Positions 36,138 to 62,295 of a stretch of 64,000 nt of DNA are shown here, piece by piece. Both the position numbers and the translations under genes were made by a program. Numbering within the stretch: position 1 is the stretch's first letter; each line of letters starts with the position of its first letter. Source of the DNA: Bryoerythrophyllum caledonicum (lineage: Eukaryota; Streptophyta; Bryopsida; Pottiales; Pottiaceae); assembly GCA_963971425.1 (NCBI GenBank), contig OZ020526.1, forward strand, positions 6,289,976 through 6,353,975. Direction: 5' to 3'. The notes beneath the pieces are model-generated. The model saw only the letters and a program-made list of their open reading frames with translations, made no database searches and had not been told where the DNA came from.

Positions 36138-36227
36138 TGGTCCCAACTCCCATACCTATTGGTGAGCGAAGGGGGAGTGGGATGAGCGTGTAAGGGTATT
36201 AGAAGGGGGAGGTGAGGAAGTCACAGC
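36138..36227 (+). promoter_or_regulatory. Probable U2 snRNA promoter
   Basis: Aligned with the flank of the inverted U2 gene (37611-37700), this flank shares CCCATA, ATTGGTGAG, GGAGTGGG and GGGTATTAGAA (GGGTATAAGAA in the other copy). The last lies about 30 bp before the RNA start, like a plant snRNA TATA box. GTCCCAACTCC at 36140 weakly resembles the plant snRNA upstream element RTCCCACATCG. Confidence 0.5.
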
Positions 36228-36434
36228 ATACCTTTCTCGGCCTTTTGGCTAAGATCAAGTGTAGTATCTGTTCTTATCAGTTTAATATCTGATTAATATC
36301 TGATACGAGGCTCATCGAGCCTCATGATATTAATCTAATTTTTCCGCGGGTGCGGGTCCATCAGGCAGCTTGCTGCTCGGACTCGCCCGCGTCGCCATGG
36401 AAAAGCACTACCTCCTTGGCCGGCGCAGCCCCAT
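36228..36434 (+). ncRNA. U2: U2 snRNA gene with 11-bp internal duplication
   Basis: It begins ATACCTTTCTCGGCCTTTTG and keeps the branch-site pairing GTAGTA. A Sm-like site CTAATTTTTCC and 3' GC-rich stem-loops follow. About 20 bp downstream CCCAATTCCTAGCTCAA fits the plant snRNA 3' box pattern. U2 pairs with intron branch points in the spliceosome. Compared with the copy at 37416-37610, it carries an extra TTAATATCTGA beside stem IIa, so it may be a variant or pseudogene. The 3' end is estimated from length. Confidence 0.85.
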
Positions 36435-37415
36435 CCCCCCTTCCGGAGGGACCCAATTCCTAGCTCAAACAGCACACACTTCATAAACATATAATACCAA
36501 AAACTCTAGTATGGTTTTTTCATGGCTTCTCCAAAAACATCTTGAGGTGGGTTGGACTACACTTTTAAAGAAATCCAGACGATGAAGCGTCTGTAGTGTA
36601 AACAGATTCACTTGCTCGAGAGTAGATTCAAAGTCTTCACATTAGCAACTGGGTACCCAACGTCATGACCATGTGCTAGATTCGGGATACATTGTGGAAT
36701 GTCGCGTCCAGTGAAAGTCGTGGATATGTAACTGCTTGCAAGAGGAGGCAGTTCAGGTGGATCAAACGTTTGGAGACTACATGATTCTTCAAACTTCGGG
36801 GATCAAGTTCTTTGCTTGTGGATCTCTGGCCATGGCTGGTGTGTATGATGCTAACCTATATATATGTTATGAGAAGTGCTCTTGTACTTCAAGTATGAAA
36901 ACTCATGAGGTTTCTTGTTGTTTAATCTGCATGCAAACCAAGTCTTTCTACTTGTATAGAGAATTCCATGCAGAAGAATGAATGCTCTGACGATGTAAAT
37001 TCCTCGCCTCTTCAGATGGGCATGAGGTCTCTGCATTTCCAGGTGTGAAGTGAATAATATTCCTCACCAAAGCTCTGAGATGAATCTGATCGGTAACATA
37101 AAACCTCCGCCATTATACATTTCAGCATAGTTTCGACATATTGATATCATTAAGACGCCTTTTTAAGGACTGTCCAGTACAGCTGGATGCAATTTCAAGC
37201 TCATTTTCGTGTTACTACTCCATGTTGATTGATCCACCGACGACATCATCGCCATGGTCAGAGAGTTTCAATTCAATGCAATCCGATTATTCATCCAAGA
37301 CATAGGAAAAAGTCACATATAATAAGCACAAGGCTGCTGGTGACAGAAGATTCCAATGCAGGTGATATGTTTGCTGTTTGAGCTTAGAATTGGGTCCCTC
37401 CGGAGGAAGAGGAGG
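36435..37415. other. Spacer between two convergent U2 genes
   Basis: The similarity of the two U2 copies extends about 45 bp into each 3' flank and then stops. No coding region is supported in the middle. Confidence 0.5.
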
Positions 37416-37610
37416 TGGGGCTGCGCCGGCCAAGGAGGTAGTGCTTTTCCATGGCGACGCGGGCGAGTCCGAGCAGCAAGCTGCCTGATGGACCCGCACC
37501 CGCGGAAAAATTAGATTAATATCATGAGGCTCGATGAGCCTCGTATCAGATATTAAACTGATAAGAACAGATACTACACTTGATCTTAGCCAAAAGGCCG
37601 AGAAAGGTAC
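37416..37610 (-). ncRNA. U2: U2 snRNA gene
   Basis: On the minus strand the sequence starts GTACCTTTCTCGGCCTTTTG, continues with the canonical ATCAAGTGTAGTATCTGTTC and CAGTTTAATATCTGATACG without duplication, then the Sm-like site and 3' stem-loops. The flank has a TATA-like GGGTATAAGAA at about -30 and a 3' box-like CCCAATTCTAAGCTCAA. The first base is G rather than A. This looks the more canonical of the pair. Confidence 0.9.
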
Positions 37611-37719
37611 ACCTCGTCGTTTTCAGCGCCCCTTTCTTATACCCTTCCGCTCTCAGCCCACTCCTTCACCTCACCAATGCTTATGGGCAGTGGACAATAT
37701 TACCGTTTTTTAATATCAA

Positions 37720-41803: not shown

Positions 41804-42369
41804 ATGCTTGATAGAAAGCAGATAGAAGAAGCTACTTTAGAGAAATTGAGGAGGGGTGAAAGAACTATAAATGTTGCTAGAGACTTACAAATATTCCAGA
41901 ATTGGGTTGTACAATTTTGTAAGCAACATTTGGGTGAGTTGAGTGATGTGAATCGCAATTTTGGTAGGCTATTGGCTCACCAGAGGAAGGATTTGGAAGA
42001 AATTGTGGAGAAGATGTTCATGGAAGAACACACAACTCACCAAATGGAAGAGATTCGCAGACTAAGCCTATTGGAAGGACTTGGAAGCATGATGAAAACG
42101 GAGGAAGAAGAACTTCCTCCATTTGGCATTCAATAGCAACCAAGGAAGGAGAATTCTGCTTCAAAGGAACCGAAGGAGGCGGTGACTAAGGATACTTGGA
42201 AACCGATACTAGGCCTCGCGGATAGAGCAATTGAGGTAGAAGAACATGAGTTTTAAAGGAGTATATCGATTGTTTTGCCTTTAGTCTAGAGGACTTGGGA
42301 GTGTTGAAAGGGAAAAAAGTGCATATCACTTTAAGGACAAAACACCAATATACTGGAAGCCATACAAAG
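41804..42369 (+). pseudogene. Ty3/gypsy polyprotein, fragment left of the insertion
   Basis: A 110-codon frame is followed after a stop and frameshift by EYIDCFAFSLEDLGVLKGKK and VHITLKDKTPIYWKPYK. This pattern occurs just before the reverse transcriptase in Ty3/gypsy polyproteins. It ends abruptly in the 10-bp CCATACAAAG at 42360-42369. The same element resumes at 62296. Confidence 0.7.
42360..42369 (+). repeat. Target site duplication, left copy
   Basis: CCATACAAAG is found here and again at 62286-62295, immediately outside the inverted ends of the giant insertion. A 10-bp duplication suits Mutator-like elements. Confidence 0.85.
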
Positions 42370-42437
42370 CAGGGTTGCTAACATGCGAGCAGTGAGCGGT
42401 GAGCAGTGAGCAGTGAGCAGTGAGCAGTGAGGTAATA
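42370..42437 (+). repeat. Left terminal inverted repeat
   Basis: After the terminal 21 bp (15 of 21 positions match the other end), GAGCAGT/GAGCGGT units repeat about seven times until GAGGTAAT. Confidence 0.85.
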
Positions 42438-43142
42438 TTTTTGAAATTTTAGGCCAATTACCTAGAAATTTGTTTGAAGTTTAGTTAAAAATTTAGTCGA
42501 GAATCCTACATCCATTGAAGAAATAAGTCATTAAAAGTAGAATAATGGTGGTATTTAGGCCATTATTCTACGTCTTTGGAGAACAAAGATGAATGTAGAT
42601 GGATGATAGATTGCATGGATGAATGGAGATGAATGACTCTGTCCATAAATGGTGATGTTTTTAAGGATGTTAAGACTCAGATTTTTAAATGACTTGGAAA
42701 TGAAAGACGTTAGTTGGGGTACTGGGAAAATCAGAAAACCGCAATGAGTGAAGTAAGTTTAAAGAATTTTAGAGATATATTCGAGACAAGGCTGAGAACT
42801 CAGACAAACAACAAATTAACTAGAAAAAAAGGTGAGAGCAATCTTCGGTGCCGAAGAAGCTTGTTGGTTGTCGTTTAAAAATAACTAGTGACAAAAATCA
42901 AGATTAGAGATGCGTGGGATCAAGGGGAACAAATACTCAAAATTCAGGAAATAGAGTTTTTGGACTTGCAATGCAACGGCTTTAAGATGTATTAGAACAC
43001 AAAAATATTGGCCCTTTTAGTCGCACTACTAAGTTCAAAATTAAAAGAAAAAACAATGGTAACCGTCGCATGGTCATGAAACAAAATTGCACAAAATAAA
43101 ACATACTGAAGTAGCCGTAAGCCTACCAACAACCCTGGTGAT

Positions 43143-46100
43143 TTAGGAACTTCCAGCACTGGCTGATCCAGCACTAGATCCATCGTCTAAAGCTTCCACA
43201 GCCTCCAAATCAAGATATTTGTGCACTCTACTATCATATACTCGTGAAATTGGCGCACGATGTGGCGTTTGAATCTCCGCGAGCTGAACCGCATTAGCCT
43301 CAATATAACAAGGCAAAGACATCGGGCTAGGCGGACTCTTCATTTGATCTACCAAACTGATTAAGAAAACATTGTTACATTAGTGAAGAGAAGTGAGAAA
43401 TTATACTACAACAATGACAATTTGTAGGATAGGAAATTCACCAGACAATGAGAATGCAAGGATTTGACTTACTTACTCAATCGGTTTTTAGGGACCCTTT
43501 TAGAAGGCCTAACCACAAGGGAGTTGCCAGAAGAATCCGGTTCTTTCCGTTTCTTCTGCATTAAGTCCTCTGACATCTCCAAAGATTCGAGAGGGGCAAG
43601 CACAGCTTCAAAGATGTCTGCTTCGGCCTCCAAGACAACCACGTGGCGCCCAGTTTTCTTGCAAGCATGCACGCTCGCACCTAGGATCATTGAGGACACC
43701 ATTAGACTTGTAAATAATGAGTGATGATAGAACAAGATTAAAGAGAATAGAAAGTAGAAGAAGTTACCGGTAGATGCGTTGCAGTCTAGGACAACATGCC
43801 CTGGTTGCGAGAAGCTTTCTATCAACATTTGGAGTAGAATAGGGTTCTTTTCTCTAGCCCCTCGCCAAGGTACGTCTCCATTCTTCAATGACATTTTGGC
43901 GGTCAAAAAGTTATGGAGAACTCCCTCACCAACGATGTCAGTCTTCACTTTGCTAACATCCAAGTTTTTCTCAATTGAAAACCTTGAATGAACCTTCTCA
44001 TCTTTATAGGATGTCTTGATGAAAAGAATGATCCAGAACCGCTTTGTCTGTGTATTGCAAAAATAAAAAAATGAGAAGGATAAAGGAAATGAAATTAAAT
44101 TGAACCCCAAGATGGACTAAGTGTGGTGTCAAACTTATAGTGCACTTCTCACTCTTGTAAGACGTGAGATGCATCTCATTAACGCCCCACCAATCATGGA
44201 GGGGCGCAAATCCGTAGGCCTCCGCAAAAGAGTCTGTTGCTTCACGAACGGTTGGATTATCAGGATGGAAGAGTACAATAGCTCCGTCATCCTGGAGAGT
44301 GTCCCTAGCGAACTCAAAAATTGGCTCCGACCAGTCCTCTGTCAAATCATTCCAACTTGGAATGACTGAGTGGCTAAGGGACAAACCAGGAATGGGCAAA
44401 CCATCTGGCATGTCCGCTATAATGAGATCGAGGTAAGCCTCACGCTTGAGAATTCCACCAAGGCGCCGCTCCATCCCTCGACCAGCCTAGCACAGAGGGC
44501 ATATATAATCAACAACAGTATCATGGAAAACTATGCACATGTATATGATCTTAAAAATTAATTAAGTACAATTAGTACGAGAGGTTTGAATTTAATACCT
44601 TTTGAGCAAAAGACAAGATTTTCAACCACTCTGGAGGAAGTTGATGATTTGAAACCATGAAGTCAATGAGCGTCGGAATGGAAGTACACAATGGTAAAAC
44701 GGTTGCCTTAATCCCGTGTGTAACAGTGCGTGTGAAGCTCTTGGCATAGAGCTGCGAAGCAGCAAATTCCTCAGTCGTGACAGAAAGCAATTCAGGAGGG
44801 TACAAGGGAGTGTCGGTCACCGTATGTACTTGAGATGGAACTGTAGTTGTAGCTGAAGGAACATGAGGCTGGTCCACTTCAACTGTGGATGATTCCAATT
44901 CCTTCCCCTTAGAGACACTAGCTTTCGCTTTCTTACCAATTGTTGGATCCTTCTTCTTCCCCTCCATCGACTCCAAAGCCTTTTTGCCACCCTTCTTTGT
45001 CACAATTACACCTGGCTCAGTTAAATCGGTTAAGTCTTCTGCAAGATCATCGAGATTCTGAACTAGTTCAGTAGGTGGTGCTTGTTTCGCCTTCTCCTCC
45101 TCCTCGTCCGCTGGAGCAAACTTGCGAGGGCACTCAAGGTACCATGGACAGGACTGGTGCTCGGATGAATTGAACGCTCGCAGTTGGGCAGCGGTAAGCA
45201 TACACATTGAACCCTTTTCTGTCCAGGCGCCGAAAAACTTGGGCATTGATTTTCGATCAATGACACCTTTGCCGTGCAGTTCTCTTTTAAAATATCTACA
45301 CAATAAGAAGGGGTCATTAGACATTTCATATACATGATTTGGATCTAAATTTCAATGTAACTGCGGACTCTCCCTTTTCGCACCAAAGAAATCAAATTGT
45401 TCTCTCGCAGAAATAAATCCAAAAATCATAAAACTACAAATTCTTAAGTATTGAAGCTAACTTATCAAAGTTAATTTCGTTAAGACATTATACACCTGAG
45501 GTGAACTTACCGGTAAACGAGTTGTTGCATGGCCTTTTCATTTCCCTCATTTTTGAGGAAGATAGTTGTCCGATCGAATCCTCCTTGCTTTCTGAATATA
45601 GAGTAGAAGGCTTGGTCCCATACAATGATACGGTACTTCTCAATGTAATCAGCAATCTCGTCAATGTTGGAGTTCGTTTCCCAGTCCACATTCAACTTCT
45701 CCAATGCTATAGTCTCTTTAACGACTCTTACTGTCGCGGCCTCCAACTGATAGATTAAAGAAAACCACATTAGTGATCATACTTACAGAGAAGTAGATAT
45801 AATGATTGAAGCAATGACATGACTTACCTCAGTCCAAAACGAAGCTTTATGCAACCAAACATCAAGTTTCTCATCTGTCACTCCAGCAGGTGGGAATCTT
45901 AGAGCAACTCGATTCATTTCGCCAGCGTTCCACCATTGCAACCAACGAACCTTGAATTGTGATGGCACAGTAGTTCCCGAAACCTTCTGTAGTTTTTCTA
46001 AAGACATCTCCGGCTTCTCGAAATTGGACCAATGGTAGTTAATCTGCAAGCATGAGTAGATTTCACAATAGAATGAAATCAAATTGAATCAAAACATAAA

Positions 46101-47475
46101 TTAGAGAGTGGAGGAGAACTGACCGCATCCAAGAATTCGGGGCCATGCTTTGGATTAGCCACTGTTGCCATTTTGTCGAATTCTCTCCTGAAACTTTTTA
46201 ACTTTGCGACCGATGCTTCATTCATTGCGTTGTGAATACCTTGAGAAGTCCTGCTCTGTGGAGAAGTTCGCTCCAAATAGACTCGACCTGCTTCATCTGC
46301 AGCTGCGGCAACCTCATGCTCCAAATACCATACAATTTAGCTCATCGAGCATACCTAAATGGTCAATCCAAATTCTGAGTCCAAAAAATTTAGGAAACTA
46401 TACCCGATTTAAAAACTTGATGAACACTTCTGATGTTAGAGGATACCAAGCCGTAGTCTTGGGCCGATTCTCACAGGACTTATATTCTTCGTGGGTGAGA
46501 AGGTCCTTAAAATCGGTTAGCTTCAATTGTCCATATGTGTTGATGCGGTGCAAACGATGGACTAGATTAGTCTTCACATGAGCGTTCTCAGTAGAGCTGG
46601 AAGTGAGAACATCATATTCGTTAATATCTAGCCATAAAAATCCAACGAAAAACCATTGGCAATTGACCTTGAACATGTGTCTTGAAAACTCACCGATTGA
46701 TGTCATTCATTGCATTAAGTAAAATCCCAGTACTCCCCTTGGAATTCAATACGATACAGTCTACCGAGTAATGCCACTTCCGATCCGCAAAATGCATGCG
46801 TGAAATATATCCTGACCACGCCTGATGCCTGTGATTGCCGTCCCAGATAAAGAACATCTTACAAGAGAACTGGGACCAACTGGCATGCTTTAACAGTTCC
46901 GATTCAAAATCGTCGTTCTCATACACCCATTGGAGGTCCCAAGTTTTGATAATCTCGTCATCAACCTCGTGACTGTTCCCATTGTCGTCGGTAATGGAAA
47001 CATAAAATACACGGTCACCCTCACGGTATCTATGTACAAACTCAGACTCCAACCTTCTGACATCGGAGAGCAGAAGTGGTCGAACTAATGGTAGAGGTAT
47101 CATCCTGCACAATGGAATCTTCATCCTGGAGTGAGAAAATGGATTGAACCTTAACTCTTGAATGATTGAATTCAAATCAAGTTTTTCCTTTAATTTGAAT
47201 GCGTCTTCAGCCTCATCTATGGTTAGATGACTCATACTGTTGTTTCCACCCAAACCATCAATGCTCTTTGATTGGCCTCCAACTATCGCCTCGCCTGCTA
47301 TAGCCGCTGCACCTTCCTGATTAGGTGAGTCGCCGATAACAACCAAGCCTCCAATTACATCCTCGACTCTACGCGAAACCTCGTCCCCTAGCGAAGCAAT
47401 TCTTTCACCGTCAGCCTGATCTCTCCCATGTGTAGCCTGAACAGTGACTTCCCGTATCTTCTCGTTAACGTCCAT
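43143..47475 (-). CDS. ParB-like domain fused to DNA methyltransferase-like protein
   Basis: Ten exons: 47475-46694, 46596-46404, 46318-46124, 46043-45828, 45746-45511, 45295-44599, 44486-about 44135, 44047-43768, 43680-43477 and 43348-43143, roughly 1120 residues. Residues about 120-245 look like a ParB/Srx-type domain: MIPLPLVRPL, then FFIWDGNHRHQAW (DGNHR at 212-216). Exon 6 holds a charged lysine-rich linker. Exons 7-9 resemble a beta-class DNA methyltransferase, with the catalytic region first (LDLIIADMPDG at the DPPY position, then GAIVLFHPDNP) and the AdoMet-binding region last (PGHVVLDCNASTGASVHA, then KTGRHVVVLEAEAD). Both key motifs deviate from consensus, so activity is uncertain. 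All joins are in frame except exon 7-8, where no GT-AG or GC-AG intron keeps frame; that may be a small indel. ParB-methyltransferase fusions are familiar from phages and bacteria; methylated base (N6-A or N4-C) and role are unknown. Confidence 0.72.
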
Positions 47476-47599
47476 CTGCAAATTGTAATTCCATGTTAGA
47501 ACAAAAGACAATGGACCAAGAAATCAACGCTTACAGATCAAACCATTTCAACAAGCATCACTTTTCAGAGTCGAGATCGGAATGGGAAAATAAAATAAT

Positions 47600-50090
47600 T
47601 GTGAAACTGCCTTTGGCACCGAAGGATAAAAATCAGGCTGGAAGTAGATCTCCAGATAAAGAAACTTTGCCAGCCTCAACCTTCAAAATCGAAGAAGCTG
47701 CATACGAGCGATTATCAAAAGTCTGGAAGAGAGGGTCCTTCGGCACCGAAGGCCACGGATCGGCACACAATATATTAAATTTCCATAACGGACTTGTCAA
47801 GTTCTAAAAGCACCCACGTCATCATCTGATGCAGAAAGTCGTGAACTCATCACTAATTTCGTCCTTCGGCACCGAAAGCCCTGTGGTCACCTAAGTTCTC
47901 AACGACATGATGATGCGCAATAGAGTTCTCAAATAGACATCGGAAGCTAGCATCCGAGACTCACAGGTTTCTATGATTATACGTTGAACCATACTGGATG
48001 TCAATATTACTTTGACCTTAAACGTTGTTTCTAGAAAAATTCGGCCTGCTGGATCATCTCCTTTGCCACCGAAGGCCCTCCGTGTCAAGAATAATTGAAG
48101 TGAAGTGAAGGTCGCGATCAATACTTGGAACCTCACATTCCAACCTCAGTGTAACCTCCAAGCCCACACCGCGGCCGTGACACAGGCATACACATCTGCA
48201 CGAGCATACATATGAATAATATGGCGGACTGAATAATATGGCACACTGAATAGTATGAGCTCATGCTCGACACTGAATAATACGGCACACTGTGGCACAC
48301 ATATGACACACTGTGCGATGATGCGGCTACTTGTGTCGAGCTGTGATGAGGCACTCTCACATAAACATCGGCATTCTCAGTGCTCACATGAACAACGGTA
48401 CTCTCGCATTAACTTCGCCACTCTCAAATGAACATCGGCACTCTCACATGAACATCGGCACTCTCCATACTTCGGCACCGGAACCCTGATCATACTTTGA
48501 GTCCTTCGGCACCGAAACCCTGATCATACTTTGAGTCCTTCGGCACCGAAACCTTGATCATATTTGTGTCTTCGGCACCTAAACACTAGCATACACTTCG
48601 GCACCTAAACCATACACTTCGGCACTTCACATACATTTGAATAATATGGCACACTGAAAATTATGAGCTCATGCTCCACACTGAATAATATGGCACACTG
48701 TCGATGGTGCGGCCGCCTGTGTTGTGTCGTGTCGTGTCGCGGCCGCATGAGCTCCTGTCGATCATGCGGCACTAAGGTGCTCCCTTGAACATCAACACTT
48801 TCTATACTTCGGCACCGAAACCCTGATAATACTTTCCATACTTCGGCACCAAAAACCATACACTTCGGCACCGAAACCCTAGTGGGACTGCAAGTCAACA
48901 CAATGTGCGCACCGATGCCGGACAAGGAGGGCCTGACCCGGCGGAACTTGGCACCAATAGTATACACTTCTCCCCACCCCCTCGCGTTACAGGTTGACAA
49001 CACTCCCTCCTGCAAAGTCACGAGCTCGACACAGGCATCGACACGAGCTCATGACAGGCCATCGACACGTGAAAGGTGAGGCTCATCACTCGTTACCACC
49101 ATGGTAGGTCTCTATCCTACCATCGAAAGTTGATAGGGCAGAAATTTGAATGAAACCACGACGCTCGCAAGAGGCCGTGCGATTCAACAAGTTATCATGA
49201 TTCACCGCAATACCGGCATCGGCATTTCATCTAATATATACGTCCCTTCCTGGCCAGCCGAGTTGGGAGTTTGTGCACGTATTAGTTCTAGAATTACTAC
49301 GATTATCCGAGTAGCCAAGGTACCATCGAAGAAAACTGATTTAATAAGCCATTCGCAGTTTCAAGGTACCATCAAAGAAAACTAATTTAATAAGCCATTC
49401 GCAGTTTCAAGGTACCATCGAAGAAAACTGATTTAATAAGCCATTCGCAGTTTCACAGTACAAAAGAGTTTATACTTACACATACATGGCTTAATCTTTG
49501 AGACATCCATATGACTACTAGCAGGATCAACCAGGTCGCTATTCCTTTCAAAAGTACAGCCCCCCAATATTCCTTCACTCATTTCATGCCGTAGCAACAG
49601 AAAGTCCCAATTCTATCGACATTGCTTTAGGTGCTGACCAGTGTCATATGGTCCCCCACCACCACTGTGATCGTAACCCATGCCAACTTGTACAACACAC
49701 CCAACCCCAAGACGCCTGTCCCAACACGTGGTGCCCTCAATCATGTTCCCACAACACTCAGCCTTCCCCACCGTCACCCTCCAAGAAAACAGCTTATTAT
49801 ATAATATTGACGTCGCTTCTTCATCCAACGAAGTCAAACCCTTGACACGAAATAGACACCGAAGGCAGGCTGGATCACCTCCTTCGGCACCGAAGGTCGT
49901 CAGTTTATAGAAAAGTTCAGAGTCGGTTGCTTCCTACATCTACTTCGACTTACGATGCAGGCGCCACCAAACTCGCGAGGCTGCTGTAGTAGAAGCAACA
50001 CTCCTGCTATTAGGTTATCATAGGTCTCGAAGGTGATGAGTCTCGGATGCTAAGCAGTGGCAAGCATGCTCCTTCGGCAGCGAAGGAGTC
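47600..50090. repeat. Dispersed CTTCGGCACCGAAG motif array
   Basis: At least 14 copies or close variants of the imperfect palindrome CTTCGGCACCGAAG lie here, for example near 47738, 47862, 48508, 48539, 48808, 48866, 49881 and 50071. Between 48180 and 48960 they alternate with GAATAATATGGCACACTG and CACTCTCACATGAACATCGG repeats. Further copies occur near 42843 and 61300. The stretch has no supported gene. Confidence 0.8.
49090..49536 (-). pseudogene. 18S rRNA 5' fragment, antisense, rearranged
   Basis: The reverse complement begins ACCTGGTTGATCCTGCTAGT, the 5' end of eukaryotic 18S rRNA. It continues through AAACTGCGAATGGCTTATTA, GCTACTCGGATAATCGTAGT and TTTCTGCCCTATCAACTTTC to CTACCATGGTGGTAACGAGT. 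A 46-bp block (GGTACCATCGAAG...GCCATTCGCAGTTTCAA, 49318-49455) is present three times where rRNA has one. Substitutions are scattered, and homology stops near 49090. It is a non-functional rDNA capture within the giant element. Confidence 0.9.
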
Positions 50091-50099
50091 TCATTGACC

Positions 50100-50185
50100 C
50101 TTGCGAACTTCACGTCTTCAGATCCAGATCCAGATCGAGATCGAGATCGACATCAAGATCGAGATCGAGATCGACGTCGAAGTTC
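50100..50185 (+). repeat. GATCGA/GATCCA simple repeat
   Basis: CCAGATC and GAGATCGAGATCGA units run for about 80 bp. Confidence 0.85.
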
Positions 50186-50189
50186 CAGA

Positions 50190-51780
50190 TCCGACAGAAC
50201 TTCAAAGTTACTTCACATCTTCAGAGTCGAGATCATACTATGGAGCTTCATAGAATCAAGATCTAGCGTTAAAGTCTCAGTACCCCAACAAAGAATAGTT
50301 CAAAATCCAGATCCGACACTGAAATCTAGAATCCAGATTCAAACTGACGATTCAGTTCAGCAATGATCGACAAACTTTGCGAATGCGCTTGAAGCAAAAG
50401 AGTGGCGGACTGAGATGATCAACTGCCGAACACACCTGACGAAGTGGCAAAATGCTTGCAATCCTTGCGAACTCAAACCCTCTCAAACCCTTCGCGCACA
50501 CACCGCAACACTGAGAACATCAGGCCGCTCCCAAAAATCTCCCTGAAAACAACTTCGCCCCCTCTCCGACAACACTCAAAGGAGAAATCAAACAGACGTG
50601 AACCTCCCCAATGACCTACCAACTTCTCATCCATTATACGCACATCCATTCAAAGGCACAACTTCATTCACATGATTACATCCCGTTTCACACCAAAACA
50701 CTTAAATAAAACTACTTGGAGATGCATGGTTGAAAGACTAATTGAAACAATTAATTACCACTATTAACCATTTGATATAAAATTTTAGTCATCATACTTT
50801 GACTCAAGATATAGGCATACTTTCCGCTTCCCCTTGACGTACCCCTAGAATTCCTTGACAATTTCACACTAAAAACACTTCAAAACTACCTTTCTAAGAT
50901 GTGGCGTTGCAATATTGGGTGTAAAAACTTCCTACTATATCCAACCGTAGGATCTTCTAGTTCACTACTACAATGTGACACATAAAAAATTTCATAAAAT
51001 TTGACCGTACGGATTGTAAAAATCAGAGTCTAGTGAAAAATGCACTGTGGTTTTTTCGTTCCCAGTGCGGACAGTGTCAGCGTTCTTTGACTCAAGATAT
51101 TGGCATACATTTGTACTACACATTGCATAATTCTATGGATCTATGTTCTACCATGTGGTGGTCATTACACGCTCAAAATCACACATAGTGAAGGTGTTTG
51201 TAATAAGAAAATATATTGCAGATACTTCAGGTTTAAAAAGTAGCCATGTATTTTGGAAAGCAATTTAATTTTTTAGATAGAAAAAAAATTTAGATCTAAA
51301 ATCCAAACATACTCCAAAGCCCCTAAAGCCCACTCATGATATAGACGAAAATTCAAAATATTACACCACATCAGAAAAGTTATGAAATTACCCTTTGAGA
51401 TTCATCGCCTGAAAAATCCATGTTTTCCTTGTCATATGCTGACTCCACAGGGTTGTTGTTGGTCATGCGCAAATTGTCATCTTCTCCCATGACTATAACA
51501 CTTTGCATTCCTTGAACGATGTCGTCCCTATTGCCTAATGTCGTAACACGAATTTTCAATTTTTTTTCAATTAGTTACTTAGGAAGGGTATCACCGTACA
51601 ACATTATAAAGTTTAGAGGTAAGTACTCCCCTAGTATTAGCTGTTAGGAAGAATTAGGGTAGGTAGAATACAGGGACTTTAGATAGGGTTAAAAAGGACA
51701 AGTAGTGGTCTAAACCGGACCCTAACACCTTAGCCCAAGCGGGTAGGTGGAAGGCTTGGAGAGGACTTCAACCAATAGGA
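50190..51780. other. AT-rich interior of giant element, no gene
   Basis: No coding frame or terminal repeat was found. Pieces resemble degenerate transposon sequence. Confidence 0.45.
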
Positions 51781-51786
51781 ACTTAG

Positions 51787-51856
51787 AAGCCCCACCGGCA
51801 ACGGCAAGGAAGCCCCACCGGCAACGGCAAGGAAGCCCCACTGGCAACGGCACGGA
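51787..51856 (+). repeat. 23-bp tandem repeat, three copies
   Basis: AAGCCCCACCGGCAACGGCA plus AGG repeats three times, the last copy with two substitutions. Confidence 0.9.
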
Positions 51857-51929
51857 AGCTCACCAAAGCCCTAGTATAATAACCGGGTTGGAGGACTCCA
51901 CATCACACCACTAGATAGCTGGAGTAGCT

Positions 51930-52950
51930 CCGAGCTGGAAGAGTGCTCTCGCAGGTCCGAGCTGCAGGGTGCTCTCGTAGGTCCGAGCACGAGCACGGAG
52001 AAGAGCTTCCCCACCGACATCCGAGCACGAGCACGAAGGAGAGTCCAGCCCGAGCAAGAAGGGAGCTCTCGCAGGTCCGAGCTGCAGGGTACTCTCGCAG
52101 GTCCGAGCACGAGCACGAAGAAGAGTCCAGCCCGACCTGGAAAGGTGCTCTCGTAGGTCCGAGCACGAGCACGAAGGAGAGTCCAGCCCGAGCAAGAAGG
52201 GTGCTCTCGTAGGTCCGAGCACAAGCATGAAGGAGAGTCCAGCCCAAACACGAAGTAGGGCCGAGCACGAGCACGGAGAAGAGCTTCCCCACCGACATCC
52301 GAGCACGAGCACGAAGGAGAGTCCAGCCCGAGCAAGAAGGGAGCTCTCGCAGGTCCGAGCTGCAGGGTACTCTCGTAGGTCCGAGCACGAGCACAAAGAA
52401 GAGTCCAGCCCGACCTGGAGAGGTGCTCTCGTAGGTCCGAGCACGAGCACGAAGGAGAGTCCAGCCCGAGCAAGAAGGGTGCTCTCGCAGGTCCGAGCTG
52501 CAGGGTGCTCTCGCAGGTCCGAGCATGAGCACGAAGGAGAGTTCCAGCCCAAGCAGGGAGGAGAGCTCCCACACCGACATCCGGGCACCGACATCCGAGC
52601 ACGAGCACGAAGGAGAGTCCAGCACGAGCACGGAGGAGAGCTCCCATATCGACATCCGGGCACCAACACCCGAGTTGAGGTAAGTCGCAGGGCCGAGCTG
52701 GAGGGTGCTCTCGTAGGTCCGAGCACGAGTAGGAAGGAGAGTCCAGCCCGAACACGAAGTAAGTCCGAGCACGAGCACGGAGAAGAGCTCCCCCACCGAC
52801 ATCCGAGCACGAGCACAAAGGAGAGTCGAGCACGAGCACGAAGAAGAGTCCAGCCCGAGCTGGAAGGGTGCTCTTGCAGGTCCGAGCTGGAGGGTGCTCT
52901 CGTAGGTCCGAGCAGGAGCACGAAGGAGAGTCCAGCCCGGGCACAAAGGC
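51930..52950. repeat. 1-kb GC-rich minisatellite
   Basis: Units built from GTGCTCTCGTAGGTCCGAGC and ACGAGCACGAAGGAGAGTCC with AGCCCGAGCAAGAAGG recur more than ten times in variable order. Because stop codons are absent from the units, long frames open on both strands (up to 431 codons on the minus strand). These are repeat artefacts, not genes. Confidence 0.92.
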
Positions 52951-53117
52951 CTGGACACCTCCACACCAGAGCACAAGGAAGGAGGGCGTACTAACACCCG
53001 AGGGAGGAGAGCTCCAGAACCTGGGAGGAAGAGAGAGAGCTGAAGGGCCCAAGAGGGGAATTGAGGATCCAGGGCTAAGGTAAGAGAGGGAGGCCAAGGG
53101 AGGAAGCCTTGTCAAAA

Positions 53118-55079
53118 ATGACCTCCCTAACCAAGGAGGTCTTTCCCACAGTCCCAAGGGAGCCACTCGAGCTCACCAAATTAAAGGAAGATCTGTTGCG
53201 GATGGGTTGCCTTTCTCTCTTGGACTTCTGTTGGAGTTTTTGCATAGACTCCACGGTGCAGGAGCTACGATAAGATCCGCTACCAGAGCCGGAGGGAAGT
53301 AGCATCCGCGCTTGCCCAGACCGGTCGACCATGGGAAGATGGCAGGAGGTGTACGGATTCCCGCGACAGGGGGCGGGCTTCACGAGTTTGAAGAAAGAGG
53401 AGTACGCCAAGGGGCTCTTTGGTACCAAGGATGCCAAGAATGGCTATGCATTGCAAGATTGCCAAGATCCTCGAGCGAAGAGGGTTTTTGCTTTCCTTGT
53501 GCCAATCTTCCACCCGGAGAAACCTACCCGAGTCACGATCACCCTAGCTAACACCCTCTATGGTGCCTATCTCGGAGAGCGGATGGTGAATTGGGCGCTT
53601 ATCATGAAGGAGGTAGTGATGAGGTTGATGAAGAGTGTCAATAGCACAAGGCACTCCCCCATTTGTCCATACCTCATCCACCTCTATCACCACTTCAAGG
53701 AAACCACTCAGGAGGAGGCTATGGCGTACGGCACGCAGCTGATGATGAAGAAGTTTGAAGGGACGGAGTCGGAGCCCAAGCCGGGATCGGAGGGAGGAAG
53801 TAGCTCTTCGCAGTCAGAGGGAGAAGCTCTCCCACCTCCCAAGCGACAACGACCAAGCCAAGGAGGAGCACCTTCCACCCGAACTCGAGCTGCTGCCCGG
53901 GTAGCCGCTACAGGCTTAGCTCAACTTGGAGGGAAGACTTATCGTGCCTCCAAGTTGGTGGAGGCTCTGTGGGTGTATGTGGACGATGTGGACAAGACCT
54001 TGGGTCAGTTGGGCAGCCTGATTGGCAATACCTCTTACCAAGGATTAGTCGCAGCGGCTAAGGAGAAGATGGGAGGAGTCGGTGACCTCCGCCTTATGGA
54101 ATAGAAGGTGAACCGACTCACTTTGGAAGTAACCAAGATGAAGAGTCGGGCCTTGGAGGCCGAGCGGAGTTGCAAGGAGGCCCTTCTCCAAGCCAATGCC
54201 TCGACCTCGGCGTTGCAACAAGTGGAGGAGGCATTGCACGTCCCGGCGGAGGCGGTGATGAAAGCGAAGATGTTTGATGCGAGGTTGGAGAGGGATGGTC
54301 ACATTTCCAGCAAGAAGGTAATTGCCTTCTTGATGGAGCAAACCGTAAAGATCGAAGAGACGTATGCTAACATGAGGTTATTGGTAAGCAACCTCACCCA
54401 TATTCTACCCAAGTTCGTGGAGGATTCTGACAAGGATGATGACTCGGGTTCGGATGCGGATTCGGAGAAGCAAGACTCGGGTGACCAAGGACCTCCGCCG
54501 GGGAAGGGAGTGATTGATCTCGATAGTCCTGACCTGCCTTCTCGAATTCCCACTGTGGGAGTCCCCGCCTGTCCCTCCCCTTCAGATCTCACCACACAAG
54601 TACAGAGTGGGAGGAAAAATGGCTTGGGTGCCACGATGGAGCCTCCGCGAACGACTCTCCTTCGCCAGTTTTCCCTTGGAGACCCCGTCCGCGCGACACC
54701 GACGGTTACTCCTTTGCCGGGTATGTCTCTTTTTGGGAAAACCACGAATGAGAGTTCGGCATACTTGCACCTTCCAGTACAACAAGAGGTCTTCACTGGG
54801 ACTCCGAGTCTCACACCGACCCTTCCGCCCCGAATCGAGCCCCACCGAAGCACGACTTCCGTGCTACTCGCTCCGGGGGGTCCGGATGCCTCCGTGACTT
54901 CGATGGAGGCCTTGCCTCGGGCATCCATGGCCGGATCGGCACCCTCTTCATCTGCGGATCTGTTATCACCACTTGTGACACTCGCGAAGGCTGCGGCGCA
55001 CCCGACTTCCAGCAAGAGTTCAAAGAAGCGGAAGAGGAGGGAAGAGAAGAGAAGACTTGAGGAGTTGACCCGGAAGTAG
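53118..55079 (+). pseudogene. Gag-like coiled-coil protein with in-frame stops
   Basis: One frame runs from an ATG at 53118 (MTSLTKEVFPTVPREPLELT) to a stop at 55077-55079, about 653 codons, broken by a TAA near 53270 and a TAG at 54102-54104. The middle holds RWQEVYGFPRQGAGF and RVTITLANTLYGAYLGERMV. A glutamate-lysine heptad-like region (VNRLTLEVTKMKSRALEAER) suggests a coiled coil. Then come an acidic stretch and a basic C-terminus (SSKKRKRREEKRRLEELTRK). I do not recognise a named domain. Size, layout and the surrounding tandem repeats resemble gag-like proteins of non-autonomous plant retroelements, but no LTR pair or primer-binding site was found. Confidence 0.5.
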
Positions 55080-56100
55080 GGTCAGAATCTTAGTGGGTAG
55101 GTCACTGTTCATTCGCGGACTAGGCCCCGTCTTGACTTTGGGTTTTGACTTGGTTTTGCCTTGGGTTTTGTGTAATAAGTGACCTCTGACGGTGCACGTC
55201 GTGTGGAGTGGCAGCTACCGCCGCCAAGAGTAGTTAATGTCACCGTTAGAAGGTATCTTTGAGTTTGGACTCTTGTGTGAGTCCTTCGCGGTATAAGAGA
55301 GGAGTCCCGTGGCACCTCTTTTCACTGCTTGATGTGTGTATTTGCTTTCAGTTGAATTCTAAACCTACGCTCTGAGAAGACCTTCGATGGTTGGAGAGCT
55401 CGGATTGCATACATGACTGTGAGTGCCATTTCAAGTAGTCCACTCCTCGAGTCCATACTAACTATCTAATCACTGTTTCCTTGTTCCATCAAAGTAGATT
55501 AGTCCGGGTGGGTGGGAATAACAGGTGAGGTGAGAAGATAGATAGTAGGGGCGTGACTCCAACTCTAACTGTTACAGTCGTTTCCTTGTTCCATCAAGTA
55601 GATTAGTTGGGTGGATGGGAATAACAGGTGAGATTGTACGTGTCTAGGGAAGGACGAGGGGGGAGTGACGGATGTATGAGGGTCATAAGTGAGTCTTGAG
55701 TGACCTCCCGGCGTACCGATTGGTGTCGGTTGTGAAGACTCATGTCACTCCCTGAAACATCCCACCCCCAGTTGCATCGGAGGTGGAGGGAGACTGGGAG
55801 GAGGACGGATAGTGGGCGGGTAGGCCCCTTGCTCACTTACATTACGACGCTCCCAGCCTTGGAAACACGGGTCTAACATCCCTTCGGGGGGATCTCAGTG
55901 ACACCATAACCATCCAAGTGAGTGAGTTGAGTTAGAAGGAGAGAATGGGAGGTAGAATAGCTGTTACTTGTGTTCAACGCTAAAATCTCTATGAGTCCAC
56001 GAACTACGTCCGGGGTGATATAATCCTTATCCGGATACTCATGTACTCCGAATGTCTATAGTGTGCATAGTTGTAAAGATAACCCCCCCATTAACCGGGG
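55080..56100. other. Non-coding flank of the gag-like ORF
   Basis: A direct repeat of about 55 bp (GTTTCCTTGTTCCATCAA...GGGAATAACAGGTGAG) occurs at about 55486 and 55580. No gene is supported. Confidence 0.5.
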
Positions 56101-56105
56101 CTAAG

Positions 56106-56396
56106 TCGAAGTAGGCTCCTACTCGAAGGTCCCTACCTCCGATGCGAAGTAGGCTCCTACCCGAAGGTCCCTACCTCCGATGCGAAGTAGGCTCCTACTC
56201 GAAGGTCCCTACCTCCGAGCGAAGTAGGCTCCTACCCGAAGGTCCCTACCTCCGAGCGAAGTAGGCTCCTACCCGAAGGTCCCTACCTCCGAGCGAAGTA
56301 GGCTCCTACCCGAAGGTCCCTACCTCCGAGCGAAGTAGGCTCCTACCCGAAGGTCCCTACCTCCGAGCGAAGTAGGCTCCTACCCGAGGGAAAACA
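56106..56396 (+). repeat. 37-38-bp tandem repeat, about eight copies
   Basis: The unit GAAGTAGGCTCCTACCCGAA plus GGTCCCTACCTCCGAGC is repeated nearly perfectly. The first copies carry CCGATGC and the later ones CCGAGC. Confidence 0.93.
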
Positions 56397-56399
56397 CTC

Positions 56400-57486
56400 G
56401 TACGGAGAGCGGGGTGGTGGATGTAGATGACGCTCAGGCGTTGTAATCTAACCCTTTTTCCTTCTTTCCTTGGATGTAACTATTGTGATATAGGTAACAT
56501 TATGTAAATATAAGCTGGTTGTTAGTCGTTGTAGTTCACGGTGATTCTCTGTGGGAACGATTACCTTAAGGGTATCTTTGTGTTAAGATGTGAATAGTTG
56601 CCAACACGTACTATGACACCTAATAAACTCGCAATGCCGGTCTCCTCCTCCTCGCGCTCGAAATGGTCACCACACACCATGTTATCAAAAGTTGAACTAA
56701 GCGAAGTCCCATCCAAATCCAATCTCCTAGACCTTGTTCGTCGTGCCATTCTAGACTTCAGGAGTTGCTTTGGAGTGGAAAACCTGAATCTAGACTTATA
56801 GCGTCTGCGCTTCACCTCCTCCTGCATTCCTCTTTTCAACCACTACACATTAACGTTAAAGCATTTCCACACGATAGTTATGCGGTCCCACTTGCTACCC
56901 TAAAGTTCAAAGATACCAACCACTCAGCTATATTGAATAGGCGTAAATATTATATGTAATGACAATATTAGTTCATAACCAAAATTAATCAATGCTAACT
57001 GTCATCTGCATTATTTGCCCACTACCTTCTACTATGATATGTTAGAAATAAACTCAAGTATCACAATATTTAAAACCCAATTTCTAAATACTCGTTAAGG
57101 CATCGTCACTTGCACCCCACGAGATTAATGCTTTAAGATTTAACTTGCAATAACCTTTCTTGTAGCTTCCATTTTAGCTTCCTTTCCACTTTTTCATTGG
57201 ACTATTAGATCAACGTGTATCGTAACATAATTTTAGACATTTCTAATTTCATACATGCTAGCCGCCAGCTGCTGCTCATCTGTAACTAGCACTTCTAAAA
57301 AACTTACCAAACTATTAAAACTTACATTTTAAATTCACTAAATTAATATACTCACAACGTCTCTATTCTATTTCAACCCTTCTTTTTCTACCATATATCC
57401 ATTCATACAAATTCCCACATTCGTAAGAGTGTTCGTACCGGGTGAGTTCCGTAGTAGTAGCAGCAGTTTACGTCCCCCCACACGCC
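56400..57486. other. Non-coding region upstream of transposase
   Basis: AT-rich, with no supported gene. It should include the promoter of the transposase gene. Confidence 0.4.
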
Positions 57487-60400
57487 ATGGCTATGGCAAC
57501 TATTCGTGGTGGAGATGGAAGCGTTCCGATCTCCGTCCCTCTAGGTGACGATGACGTAGCATGGGTCTTTGAATCGATGCTCACTCATCGTTTCAATTAT
57601 GCTATGAGGTCTATGTGGATTGAGGAGGAAGTCTTTGATCCAAACGGAGAGTTAGTACTGTCTACAATTATGCAGAAGAAACATATCCATGATGGTGACC
57701 TTCTCTGGAGACTTTTGCCAGGAAAATATAGGGTTTACGGAAATCCAATCCTTTGCCCCTCTATTCCCACTTCAGAGTCAAAGAAGCCGACTTTGTATTT
57801 GTCTCCTCCAGCTCCAGTCAAAGTTAAATCATTTGATAGTGCGACTATCCTACTTAGTGAGTCCTTAGATGATGAATCCGTTCCTAGATCAAATTCCCGT
57901 TTCTCCTTCCTATCTCCAATAACAGAAACTGTCTTTGAAGTCCCTGAAACTTTGTCACAGTCAGTCTCTACTCTGCCGTCTCAGAATTCACGTCCTCCTC
58001 TTCATCCAGCCTCAGATCCTACAAGCATCCTCAATTGTCTTAAGCAGTTACAGTACAGACTACGTGGAAAGAGTGATTTGAAATTTTTGGATCTGGATGC
58101 TCTACGGTGTGAGAAAGTCCAATTTCTTCTTTCAGAGTTCAATGGTGATGTAATGTTTGAGTTCCCACCCATGCCGAGTAATTTGTCTCCATCATACGCT
58201 CGTAAAATGGAAGGGATGGACAAAAGATATGATGGTCATCTATGGACCAAAACACATACTACTAACATTGTCAATGACTATGGTCTTACCTTCAGATACT
58301 CAAGTTGTGTCGGTCACCTCCAATGCATGAACGACAGTTGTCCGAGATTGCGTCGCTCCGGCTTCCACAACGACACGGAGTGGGATGGCATTACAACACA
58401 CGTATTTCTCGTAGGGGAGCAGCCACCGGCGCATTCCACTGTCCAATGTCGAATTTGTAAGTCTCCGCCCTCTTGCATTGCCTCTTGTCCGTGCAGAATG
58501 TATTACATTCTTAACAAGAGTGGAATTGGAAGAGCTTGTATTCACGTGGGCACCCACCAACATCCGACCGCAAAAGGAGTATGTCGAGAGTCTGTTCAAA
58601 GAGTTTCTGAGCTTGTGAGTAATGAGGTCCACAGAACCCCAACTGGCAAGAACTCTGCAATTGCTCTTGCCGCAAGTAAAGAGTTCTTGTCCACCGAATT
58701 GTTTGCACTTGATCGGGAGGGAGTCCCTGAACCCCTTCGTGGAGATTCCCTTGTGGCGGTGATGGAGAGATTTCGAATCCTAAGCTCACCCAACATCCGC
58801 AACGCTATCTCTACATTACGTCCCAATGAAAATGGAGGACCACTAGACAACATCATCAAACTCAAGTTGAAGAGTCCCTACGCATACATCCAAGATAGCG
58901 TTTTCCCGGGACAAGGAAAAGATAAGGTGTACCTCTTCAAGATGTCTGAAGAAGGTCCAGGGAGCGGTGTGGATCTCGTAAGGCGAATGCAAATTGGCGG
59001 AGACCTGCAGAACTCCTGGATCATGTTCGACCATGTCAAACGTGTGAAGGGTTGGACTACAATGGCATGCCATGTGTACGATCCTGAATACTGCCGGGTG
59101 ATGAGCATCGCCATATGTGATATGTAGAGCGAGGACGTTGAGTCTCAGAAGTTGATGTGGTCAGCTCTCAACAATGTGATGGCTCGCCACGGTATCACAA
59201 ACCCTAATTTCAAGGGTTTCATGGCGGATAGTGCGCAGGCTAACTGGAACGCTATGAGGATAATCTACGGAAGCGGCGACCCAACGGCAAAGATGGTTGA
59301 TAGAGAGAGGACATGCTTTCTTCACTGGGTAACGTCACTCAATCGGCACACAAAGAAGCTTATCCAAACTGATTTACAAGACCAACATATCAAGCTATGT
59401 AGACAGTATAGAGATGCAAAATCATTTGAAGAGGCCGAAGTATTATACCTCGGCATTAAAGGTTGGTGGCTCTCATCTCGTGCAGCAACGGAGGAGGCTG
59501 TATGTGAGCTGGACGATTGGCTCGGTTTTTGGCACTTCCGCTACCACCAATGGGGTAGCTTCATGGACATGGTAAGTTATCACAAACCTAACCCTACATT
59601 GATTTACCTCCTTCTATACATACTCTACGTCTTCTAAACACTAGCCCTAAGCCTATGTATCTTCGCTCTTCGATTTCACATGCCCTAACCTAAATCCCTG
59701 AATTTTGTTGACTGCTCGACAGGACCTCGACATTGAAGAATTGGCTGAAATGCCATCCTGCAACCTATATGAGACGGTGCACAATAGATGGTTACAAATG
59801 TCGGGCAATAGAGGGACGTGCTTATATGTTGCTACGACAGACGATATGATGCGTGCAATGATGCAAACCACAAACTATTGGGCCTATTTACAGGGTCACG
59901 CTTCGGGAACTGGGCCCCACCTCGACGAACTTCGTTTACGGGCAGCCCGACGATCTAAGGATCCACTAAAGGTTGCTACAGCAATCAAAAAGCTCCCTGG
60001 CGCAAATCAATTTGCTACTCAAGTTCCCCATTTGGAAGGCGAGGAGGTATTTGGATCCGCGAAGCGAAAACTAGATCTTCCGTCGGGATCTGATGAAGAC
60101 TCTCACCGCCATGATAAGGTGAACTACTCTCATCCCCGTGTACAAACCCGCTCTACTCGATCTCGAACAGACGTCGGTCCTTCAAGTGTGGTTATTACTC
60201 CACCCATAGAACCATTGTCAGACCGGGGCCACGCAACTTCAATCCTAGAAACTGAGTGCAATCCACATCCATGGCACATTGCTCGGTGCACTAAAGTCAC
60301 CAAGAAGTGCTATGCCGCCCAAGTGGGCCAGAAGACCAAATGTGGTGCCAAGGTATGCCGTGACAAGGTAAAAGGGCACTCCTGCCCCTACTTACAATGG

Positions 60401-61112
60401 TAAAATGACAGAGTGGGGGACCAGATTAATTATTTTTTCTGATTTCTGGTTTTGTTCGGACCATATTGTGCGTTGTGTCCACGCTGGCAAGTTTAGATAT
60501 GTGCACGACTGGCCCCCTCTTCCAACTACTTGGCCAATTGCACGTGGTACAAATCTCACTAAGGCTGAAATTCTGGCATTGGAAGATGGGGGATTTGAGC
60601 TTCAGACGAAGGACTTTGATATGTCTCCTACACGCCTTTTCAACACGTCTCTTTCTGTAGCTACTTCAAACACTCCAAGTCCCACCCCCCCAGATGCGGG
60701 TGGCCATCCAACAAAGCGTTATGGAAGGACGATAAAGAGGAATCCAAAGGCACCCACCGTGGATCACCTTAACAAATGGGAGACTGCTAGGAATGTTCGG
60801 GCAACCGTGAAATCCGTTACCATGATTCCATACCCTGGTTATGGCAGAATCATCACACTAGACTCGGGTATCTTCCCGAAGCAGAAGACCTATCTAATTT
60901 CACTTAGTGACTTGCCGTCTTGCACTTGTGATTATTTTGTTACCATGAGCACTGGTGCACTTGGCAAACGGAAACCGTGGCTGAACTGCAAGCATTTGTA
61001 TTATGTTTACAGATACCTCTGTAAGGCTGACTGCCAAGTCGACAAATATGTTCACGCTGCGAGTCTCAGTTTTGATGAGATTCAACAACTTCTGCGAGGC
61101 ACTGATCTCTAA
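57487..61112 (+). pseudogene. Mutator-like (MULE) transposase with SWIM finger
   Basis: Exon 1 (57487-59571) and exon 2 (59723-about 60399) join in frame through GTAAGT...CGACAG. A third block (about 60480-61112) ends the protein; its exact junction is unclear. Catalytic landmarks are WIMFDHVKRVKGWTTMACHV (first Asp region), FKGFMADSAQANWNAMRIIY (second Asp), the MULE-type C-x2-H in RERTCFLHW, and a glutamate-rich stretch before WLGFWHFRYHQWGSFM. Cysteine pairs lie near residues 310-360 and in WHIARCTKVTKKC. The C-terminus has a SWIM zinc finger (CTCDYF...CKHLYYV). A single in-frame TAG (59125-59127) sits between AICDM and SEDVES, where one substitution from CAG would explain it. The first ATG is used; an upstream GTG frame adds 15 codons. 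It would mobilise elements with the inverted ends seen at 42370 and 62285. Confidence 0.82.
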
Positions 61113-61329
61113 GTTGTTAGCCTAAACCTAGGTCGCCTTCATATAGTTAGGCGCATGGTTATTTCTTTCATGTGCATAGGGACCTAAACTACAAAACTGT
61201 TATATTGATAGGTTATATAATTGCATTGTCCTTCACTTTGTTAGGAAGTCATTTATCCATTTTGATGGTTTTAAAAAAAATTGGAGCTCCAATTATGCTC
61301 TTTGGTACCGAAGAGCCCATTTCACCCTA

Positions 61330-61640
61330 GCAATATTTTTCTTCTAGACTTTTTTTATTTGTTTTTTTTTCTAGTTTTTTTTTGGTTTTTTTTTTTTTAT
61401 ATATATAAATTTGTTCTGGTGTTTTTTTGGGTTTATGTTTGTGTTAATTTTTCTGCTTTTCTAATTTTTTTAGTGGTTTTTTGGTGTAATTCTTTTTGTA
61501 TAATGTCTTTCATTCGTTTTTTTTTTCTATGTATTGTCTTTTTGAAGTTTTTTTTTTTTTTTTTTTTTTTTCTGTAGTGTTTTTTGTGTTTTTTTTAGGT
61601 TTATTTTAGTTTTTTTGGTTTTTTTTTTGTGGATTTTATC
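61330..61640 (+). repeat. T-rich low-complexity tract
   Basis: Over 300 bp are mostly T on this strand, with runs up to about 22 T broken by single G or C bases. A 98-codon frame rich in F, V and L is an artefact of this composition. Confidence 0.9.
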
Positions 61641-62285: not shown

Positions 62286-62295
62286 CCATACAAAG

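Follow-up and report, generated by a model that had tools for sequence, protein, structure and literature searches.

A two-gene transposon family in a moss genome with a DGNHR/methyltransferase-fold fusion gene and clade-specific palindromes

A stretch of 64,000 nucleotides from the moss Bryoerythrophyllum caledonicum (the window, on contig C15 of the 437-Mb genome searched) was analysed around a gene reported on the minus strand at 47475-43143. Its ten exons code for a protein in which an N-terminal DGNHR (ParB-like) region is fused to a C-terminal methyltransferase-fold domain, and it lies, together with a presumed transposase gene on the opposite strand, within an element bounded by terminal inverted repeats (TIRs). 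The boundaries and copies of the element were studied in the window and in six stretches of the same genome (cC2, cC4, cC6, cC7, cC12 and cC14), picked among the best matches of a genome-wide exon-1 search; what is said of TIRs and target-site duplications (TSDs) applies to the window's own clade.

The element and its two genes

The element and its transposase gene are laid out as follows (window coordinates, with the strand where one applies):
42370-62285: whole TIR-bounded element, 19,916 bp, from the end of similarity to the copies, with exact ends and TSDs
42360-42369, plus strand: left TSD CCATACAAAG, from ends compared among copies
62286-62295, plus strand: right TSD CCATACAAAG, from ends compared among copies
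42370-42431, plus strand: left terminal repeat, CAGGGTTGCTAACATGCGAGC and then the 7-bp array (GAGCAGT)n
62223-62285, minus strand: right terminal repeat, CAACGACGCTAGCATGTGAGC and then an inverted 7-bp array of similar kind
51540-56618: nested insertion with CTAAT at each edge, absent from cC4, cC7, cC6, cC14 and cC12
57487-59571, plus strand: presumed transposase exon 1, with a stop codon (59125-59127) in the window copy only of the six aligned
59723-61112, plus strand: presumed transposase exon 2, with C-terminal CxC...CxxH and a 1-bp difference at about 60370 in the window copy only of the six aligned

Each end of the element consists of about 20 bp followed by arrays of the 7-bp unit in inverted orientation, and the TIR arms in the window are 55 nt long and 87% complementary. 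In the copies having both ends, the match to the window breaks off at positions 42370 and 62285 or no more than about 20 bp away. Five of the seven sequences (window, cC4, cC6, cC7 and cC12) share both ends, and all five have their own 10-bp TSD beside the inverted repeats, as Mutator-like elements do; the left end of cC14 and the right end of cC2 were not found. The first-pass annotation had placed the gene in a TIR-bounded plant element, which is borne out, and the TSDs and the comparison of copies indicate that this element has moved. It measures 14.5-14.8 kb in cC4, cC6, cC7 and cC12, and is longer in the window because of the nested insertion of about 5 kb. This insertion is not part of the transposon family, as cC4, cC7, cC6, cC14 and cC12 match the window on both of its sides. 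It holds GC-rich tandem arrays with units of about 138 nt and 37 bp, and no direct repeat joining its two ends was found. A reverse transcriptase (RVT_1) fragment is located at 62414-62830, and the element sits within or beside an old retroelement.

The splice sites of the fusion gene were placed by eye and then compared with the six copies, which gave the following features (the coordinates of the DGNHR motif, motif IV and the corrected exon-7 end were counted by hand):
46694-47475, minus strand: exon 1, with start codon and DGNHR (ParB-like) region, from the model and copies, with 84 homologous proteins
46828-46842, minus strand: DGNHR motif, residues 212-216, numbered from the alignment
46404-46596, minus strand: exon 2, from the model and copy comparison
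46124-46318, minus strand: exon 3, its acceptor backed by all six other copies
45828-46043, minus strand: exon 4, from the model and copy comparison
45511-45746, minus strand: exon 5, from the model and copy comparison
44599-45295, minus strand: exon 6, from the model and copy comparison
44139-44486, minus strand: exon 7, catalytic-motif half of the methyltransferase domain, its end corrected from the copies
44403-44414, minus strand: motif IV position, D-M-P-D, from family comparison
43768-44047, minus strand: exon 8, with the S-adenosylmethionine (AdoMet) motif DCNASTG at its end, from the model and copies
43473-43680, minus strand: exon 9, from the model and copy comparison
43143-43356, minus strand: exon 10, including the stop codon, from the model and copies

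The first model yielded 1129 residues, and the corrected exon-7 end (44139) makes the protein 7 residues shorter. The first-model donor of exon 7 was dropped, since the donor GT of all six other copies sits at 44138; the window copy has no GT there and is for this reason probably splice-defective. In cC4, cC7, cC6 and cC12 the whole frame is kept, with no internal stops and only in-frame indels, and so are all internal splice sites of the model, save the first exon-7 donor in cC12; the ten-exon spliced gene read from the window is therefore real, with that one donor corrected. The cC2 copy has 8 stops and cC14 is truncated. The frame of the presumed transposase is uninterrupted in cC4, cC6 and cC12, while cC7 carries a single internal stop and cC14 a frameshift. 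Taken together, the missing exon-7 donor and the transposase stop and 1-bp difference mean that the window holds a decayed (defective) copy of a family which has intact members.

The genome was searched with exon 1, exon 7 and a piece of the transposase, which gave at least 147 places scored (of 1768 candidates), at least 150 (of 1645) and at least 150 (of 2048), respectively, the counts being those of the matches listed. The exon-1 count excludes a single-copy syntenic host gene. A transposase match lies within 16 kb at 70 of the 147 exon-1 places listed, on the opposite strand and upstream (head-to-head) in 69 of these 70. Random positions, counted on any strand, gave a mean of 1.6 and a maximum of 6 paired places against 64 observed, for the 136 places on large contigs. 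Of the 147 exon-1 places listed, 70 have exon 7 no more than 7 kb away, always on the same strand and downstream (70/70), and the transposase was found within 20 kb at 73 of the 150 exon-7 places listed, always head-to-head (73/73); both exon 7 and the transposase are present at 52 of the 147 exon-1 places listed. When split by exon-1 identity, head-to-head pairing is seen at 8 of 10 places above 90%, 8 of 13 at 75-90%, 15 of 32 at 60-75%, 7 of 15 at 50-60% and 31 of 77 below 50%, and the two-gene module recurs at places of 42-100% identity. The fusion gene and the presumed transposase form a divergently transcribed two-gene module of a high-copy family, and both the fusion and the two-gene layout are old features of this family, since the fixed pairing is seen at all identity levels.

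The ratio of nonsynonymous to synonymous substitution rates (dN/dS), obtained by simple counting with the first exon-7 end and without a formal selection test, is 0.28-0.32 between cC12 and each of the window, cC4, cC6, cC7 and cC14 (two subclades), 0.36-0.41 between these five and the decayed cC2, 0.50 between cC2 and cC12, and 0.08-0.54 among close copies, which differ by few changes. The fusion gene thus changes mainly at silent sites. In a sister clade, ten places among the matches listed (including C8:8417406, C8:28180417, C1:33134120 and C2:3049737) have identical transposase scores (9.3e-63, 730-aa frame), with exon-7 places of equal score (1.2e-24) near them, which looks like a recent burst of copies.

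The two halves of the fusion protein

The exon-1 query retrieved 84 related proteins from public genomes and metagenomes. Across the resulting 85 sequences, conservation reaches at least 90% at each of D212, G213, N214 and H215 and in the A-W that follows, and is lower at R216. We take the GERR/GNHR-type motif to be a hallmark of ParB, and a conserved motif of this type is present here. "ParB-like" is best read as a motif-level label, because no profile or profile-profile test supports ParB. The A1 consensus has no match to PF02195 (ParB) and a weak one to DUF6551 (E 0.085), the 85 exon-1 members gave one weak match each to DUF6551 and DUF1015, and the only match of the exon-1 region to solved structures is at chance level (ribosomal protein, E 0.2). 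A ParB domain assigned by sequence was rejected for the N-terminal region, as every profile test failed. Of the ParB-like/methyltransferase fusion described by the first-pass annotation, what stands is a DGNHR motif and a methyltransferase-fold domain in one spliced protein; the ParB domain is reduced to its motif.

Neither the full-length protein (7997 candidates scored) nor the methyltransferase part (1233 candidates) retrieved any relative. The exon-1 alignment gave 28 pattern matches and no relatives in viral contigs, and exon 1 had no relatives in a phage collection, where the methyltransferase half was not searched. Among prokaryote genomes, 83 pattern matches to exon 1 included one relative, L001 (CADCWO010000058.1), which is intron-bearing; its contig is binned as a Synechococcales (cyanobacterium) genome and is likely eukaryotic contamination of a metagenome-assembled genome. 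The old bacterial acquisition proposed earlier for this gene is not supported by these searches with exon 1.

At the C terminus, the N6_N4_Mtase profile (PF01555) matches with 35.2 bits (cut-off 26.7), and its cut-off is also passed at 8 further places of the 150 scored in the genome, in a clade about 35% identical to window exons 8-9; the spliced piece of L001 scores 25.8, just under the cut-off. Among solved structures, the best sequence matches are to CcrM and related enzymes including DpnA, at a weak level (E 0.003), the PRK13699/CcrM models match far under their cut-offs, and the frame of exons 8-9 weakly matches four methyltransferase families in PHROGs (best E 0.0004). By profile, the C-terminal domain can be placed in the N6_N4 methyltransferase fold family. 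The catalytic motif (residue 798 in the first model) precedes the AdoMet motif (residue 984), in agreement with the permuted (beta-class) order previously read from the window.

The catalytic motif is altered. The [DNS]PP[YFW] motif of PF01555 was not found, its first proline and aromatic residue being replaced: the window, cC4 and cC12 have DMPD at this place, the decayed cC2 has DMLD and L001 has DVPE. Among 12 exon-7 pieces, picked by hand from the 150 to span 38-67% identity, 10 have D[MLI]P[DE] and the other two YMSY and DLKD, and in another clade all eight loci have DQPF. Nor was the FxGxG form of the AdoMet motif found: the last G is retained and S stands at the first (DCNASTG, DITASTG or DLNASTG). 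The AdoMet half is the best-conserved part; its ...ASTG... (ASIG in one locus, L017) precedes an acidic residue in the lineages examined.

Palindromes in the non-coding DNA

A 12-bp palindrome, TTCGGYRCCGAA, is found in non-coding DNA of the element, at the following positions:
47612-50084: intergenic cluster, with exact TTCGGCACCGAA at 47739, 47865, 48505, 48539, 48808, 48864 and 49883, and near-matches between
42844-42855: palindrome TTCGGTGCCGAA, 475 bp in from the left end (482-496 bp for four other copies)
61301-61312: TTTGGTACCGAA, resembling the palindrome, about 1 kb in from the right end, where four other copies have a better match

With up to one mismatch allowed, the window element has 14 palindromes, of which 13 are intergenic, upstream of the fusion gene, and one lies 475 bp inside the left end; each of four other copies has 10-11. 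At the same threshold there are none in the 44,084 bp of the window outside the element, nor in 48,020 bp beside the six copies. In an unbiased count of 5-2-5 inverted repeats, TTCGG is the top arm in five elements, a count reached in none of 50 shuffles for each of the five. In the window it ties with a GTAGG arm, which is taken to come from the 37-bp array of the nested insertion.

The motif of TTCGGYRCCGAA type (up to one mismatch) is present in all 21 loci L018-L038, of 74-100% identity, and in one of the nine loci L039-L047, of 60-68%. The latter have a related palindrome, CCTCGGNNCCGAGG, which was followed in a shuffle test of 12 of the 30 exon-1 loci (L041 and L042 being outside it): CTCGG arms occur four times in L040 and three times in L045 (0/200 shuffles each), three times in L043 (second to GCACC arms, with four), twice each in L046 and L047 (3/200), and once each in L044 and L039. 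The palindromes are therefore clade-specific, and they look like binding sites belonging to the family itself. The GCACC arms represent a second palindrome type, with 2-4 copies in L043, L039 and L047.

Around the element, three neighbouring open reading frames (ORFs) match UDP-glycosyltransferase, molybdopterin dehydrogenase and P450 profiles, in keeping with plant DNA. Further away, an ORF on the minus strand at 14660-15898 has a strong match to DUF7869 (PF25273, 140 bits) and is probably part of another transposable element, and an inverted repeat at 36174-37664 (159-nt arms, 97% complementary, spaced by 960 nt) is possibly another small TIR element.

Interpretation and comparison with known systems

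On balance we lean towards regarding the fusion gene as the second core gene of an old, high-copy family of plant DNA transposons, coding for an element-specific factor that acts at the family's own palindromes. A complete element would then consist of two divergent genes between short terminal repeats, one for a presumed Mutator-like transposase and the other for a protein of about 1,120 residues that begins with the DGNHR (ParB-like) region and ends with the permuted methyltransferase-fold domain. This fusion protein would recognise the palindromes, probably as a dimer, which would confine its action to elements of its own clade. It may counter host silencing or regulate transposition by occupying the element DNA or by marking it chemically, in a mode of working likened to that of VANC in VANDAL elements.

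Several observations weigh against this reading. The PF02195 (ParB) profile has no match in either the genome or the fusion protein, and hhalign against eight plasmid ParBs gave scores of 12.2-12.4, compared with medians of 11.2-11.6 and maxima of 20-21 for 60 column shuffles; the short segment covered by this alignment nevertheless brings MFFIWDGNHRHQA opposite GYILIAGERRWRA. The profile checks proposed earlier are thus positive for the N6_N4 methyltransferase and negative for ParB. For the transposase, D...CxxH and CxC...CxxH (presumably SWIM-like) were spotted by eye; there is no significant Pfam match, the joined cC4 protein having only DUF7841 (E 0.19) and no match to a Mutator-like element (MULE) transposase profile. 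Among the matches listed, about half of the exon-1 places have no transposase, which can be read neither way. The dN/dS is higher, at 0.45-0.54 by simple counting only, between the window and its closest copies. As for the palindromes, three of the 12 shuffle-tested loci (L038, L039 and L044) have no enriched TCGG-type palindrome and three others (L034, L046 and L047) have only two copies each; some palindromes also lie within tandem repeats and related loci share ancestry, so the counts are not independent. The palindrome could moreover be a site of the transposase or of a host factor, its link to the fusion protein being inferred.

A more specific proposal, which we hold only tentatively, is that a ParB-like clamp or dimer joined to a re-purposed methyltransferase fold loads on the clade-specific palindromes in the way that ParB loads on parS, marking or shielding the copies, with protein and palindrome changing together as clades split. 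It is rather unlikely that the protein is an active amino-methyltransferase which places N6-methyladenine (6mA) or N4-methylcytosine (4mC) on the copies, perhaps at the palindrome, and so protects them or times transposition. The PF01555 matches in the window and at the 8 further places speak for such self-marking, as do the well-conserved AdoMet half with its weak best matches to CcrM and DpnA, the palindromic repeats, which offer a symmetric site as for Type II enzymes, and the one clade reading D-Q-P-F, close to DPPF. The DQPF clade would be the best candidate for methylation activity. Against it, 10 of the 12 chosen pieces have D-[MLI]-P-[DE] as motif IV, the window, cC4 and cC12 have DMPD and L001 has DVPE; [DNS]PP[YFW] has both its first proline and its aromatic residue replaced, and the first glycine of motif I is S. 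Most members have D-[MLIV]-P-[DE] in place of DPPY, for which reason ordinary 6mA/4mC activity seems doubtful; we think it more likely that the protein occupies DNA and binds AdoMet, or that its chemistry has changed. The methylation role first suggested for the gene is weakened accordingly: its fold is matched by profile, and almost every member seen has an altered catalytic motif.

The fixed orientation of the fusion gene relative to the transposase, the palindrome 475-496 bp inside the left end in all five elements, the one about 1 kb inside the right end and the 7-bp arrays at both ends could also be explained by a protein of the transposition complex that joins ends and internal sites, the palindromes being transposase or accessory sites. 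We consider this improbable, since 13 of the 14 palindromes of the window element are intergenic, away from the ends, and such a role has no need for a methyltransferase fold. Least probable by far is a captured host or bacterial gene carried as passive cargo in a subset of elements. Phage fusions of a ParB fold with an N6_N4 methyltransferase are known (PMC12704722), but the dN/dS is well below 1, the gene is present in fixed orientation to the transposase at places of 42-100% identity, and exon 1 has no relatives in phages or viral contigs. The pairing and orientation counts largely refute this explanation, which was rejected on the fixed orientation at both exon-1 and exon-7 places; "cargo", as the gene had initially been called, does not describe a core gene of a high-copy two-gene family that stands head-to-head with the transposase at 69 of 70 places.

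VANDAL elements, which we take to be of Mutator type, offer a parallel for the favoured reading of an element-specific factor. In Arabidopsis, VANC of VANDAL elements binds to motifs that lie in the non-coding DNA of the element encoding it, which leads to loss of DNA methylation (PMC5735166). The likeness lies in a plant element with an extra element-encoded gene and in element-specific short motifs in intronic, intergenic and terminal non-coding DNA, often in tandem and varying between relatives (PMC5735166); in the moss as well, an element-specific motif is concentrated in non-coding parts. In contrast, "methyltransferase" and "palindrom" do not occur in that text (PMC5735166), and methylation loss has been shown for VANC, whereas the analogy drawn here is one of sequence layout. 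The TSDs of 8-11 bp, the SWIM-type zinc fingers of several groups and the extra ORFs that several acquire also recall Mutator-like elements (PMC6446971). The moss element differs from these in having no Pfam transposase match and ends of about 20 bp plus a 7-bp array, compared to MULE TIRs commonly of hundreds of bp, and neither "methyltransferase" nor "ParB" occurs in that text (PMC6446971).

Genes of DNA-methyltransferase fold in mobile elements are also known from retrotransposons of dinoflagellates and charophytes, which carry cytosine methyltransferases, with hundreds of copies in Symbiodinium (PMC5890265). Those are host-derived C5 DNA methyltransferases shown to be active (PMC5890265), while the moss gene is of permuted N6_N4 type with an altered catalytic motif and belongs to a DNA transposon. 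The N4CMT of bdelloid rotifers shares with it a permuted amino-methyltransferase domain (PF01555), introns and a eukaryotic nuclear genome, and in 2022 was described as having no eukaryotic homologs (PMC8885841). N4CMT is however an allelic pair of host genes with SPPY, a chromodomain and 4mC activity (PMC8885841), whereas the moss gene is multi-copy, transposon-borne, fused to a DGNHR region and devoid of [DNS]PP[YFW]. Phage fusions of a ParB-CTPase fold with an N6_N4 methyltransferase likewise join these two kinds of module within a single protein and are enriched in prophages (PMC12704722); the N-terminal region of the moss protein is ParB-like by motif only. Searches among open-licence PMC papers turned up none that describes a plant transposon carrying a methyltransferase-like gene of this kind.

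If the favoured reading is true, plant transposons would have a second, apparently different route for controlling host epigenetics, after VANC, and one that uses a permuted N6_N4-type fold. An altered catalytic motif kept over long divergence raises the question of what role an AdoMet-type fold with D-x-P-[DE] plays. The protein and the palindrome would form a ready pair, and since two clades have different half-sites (putative targets TTCGGCACCGAA and CCTCGGTACCGAGG), the co-evolution of a selfish DNA-binding protein with its sites would be directly testable.

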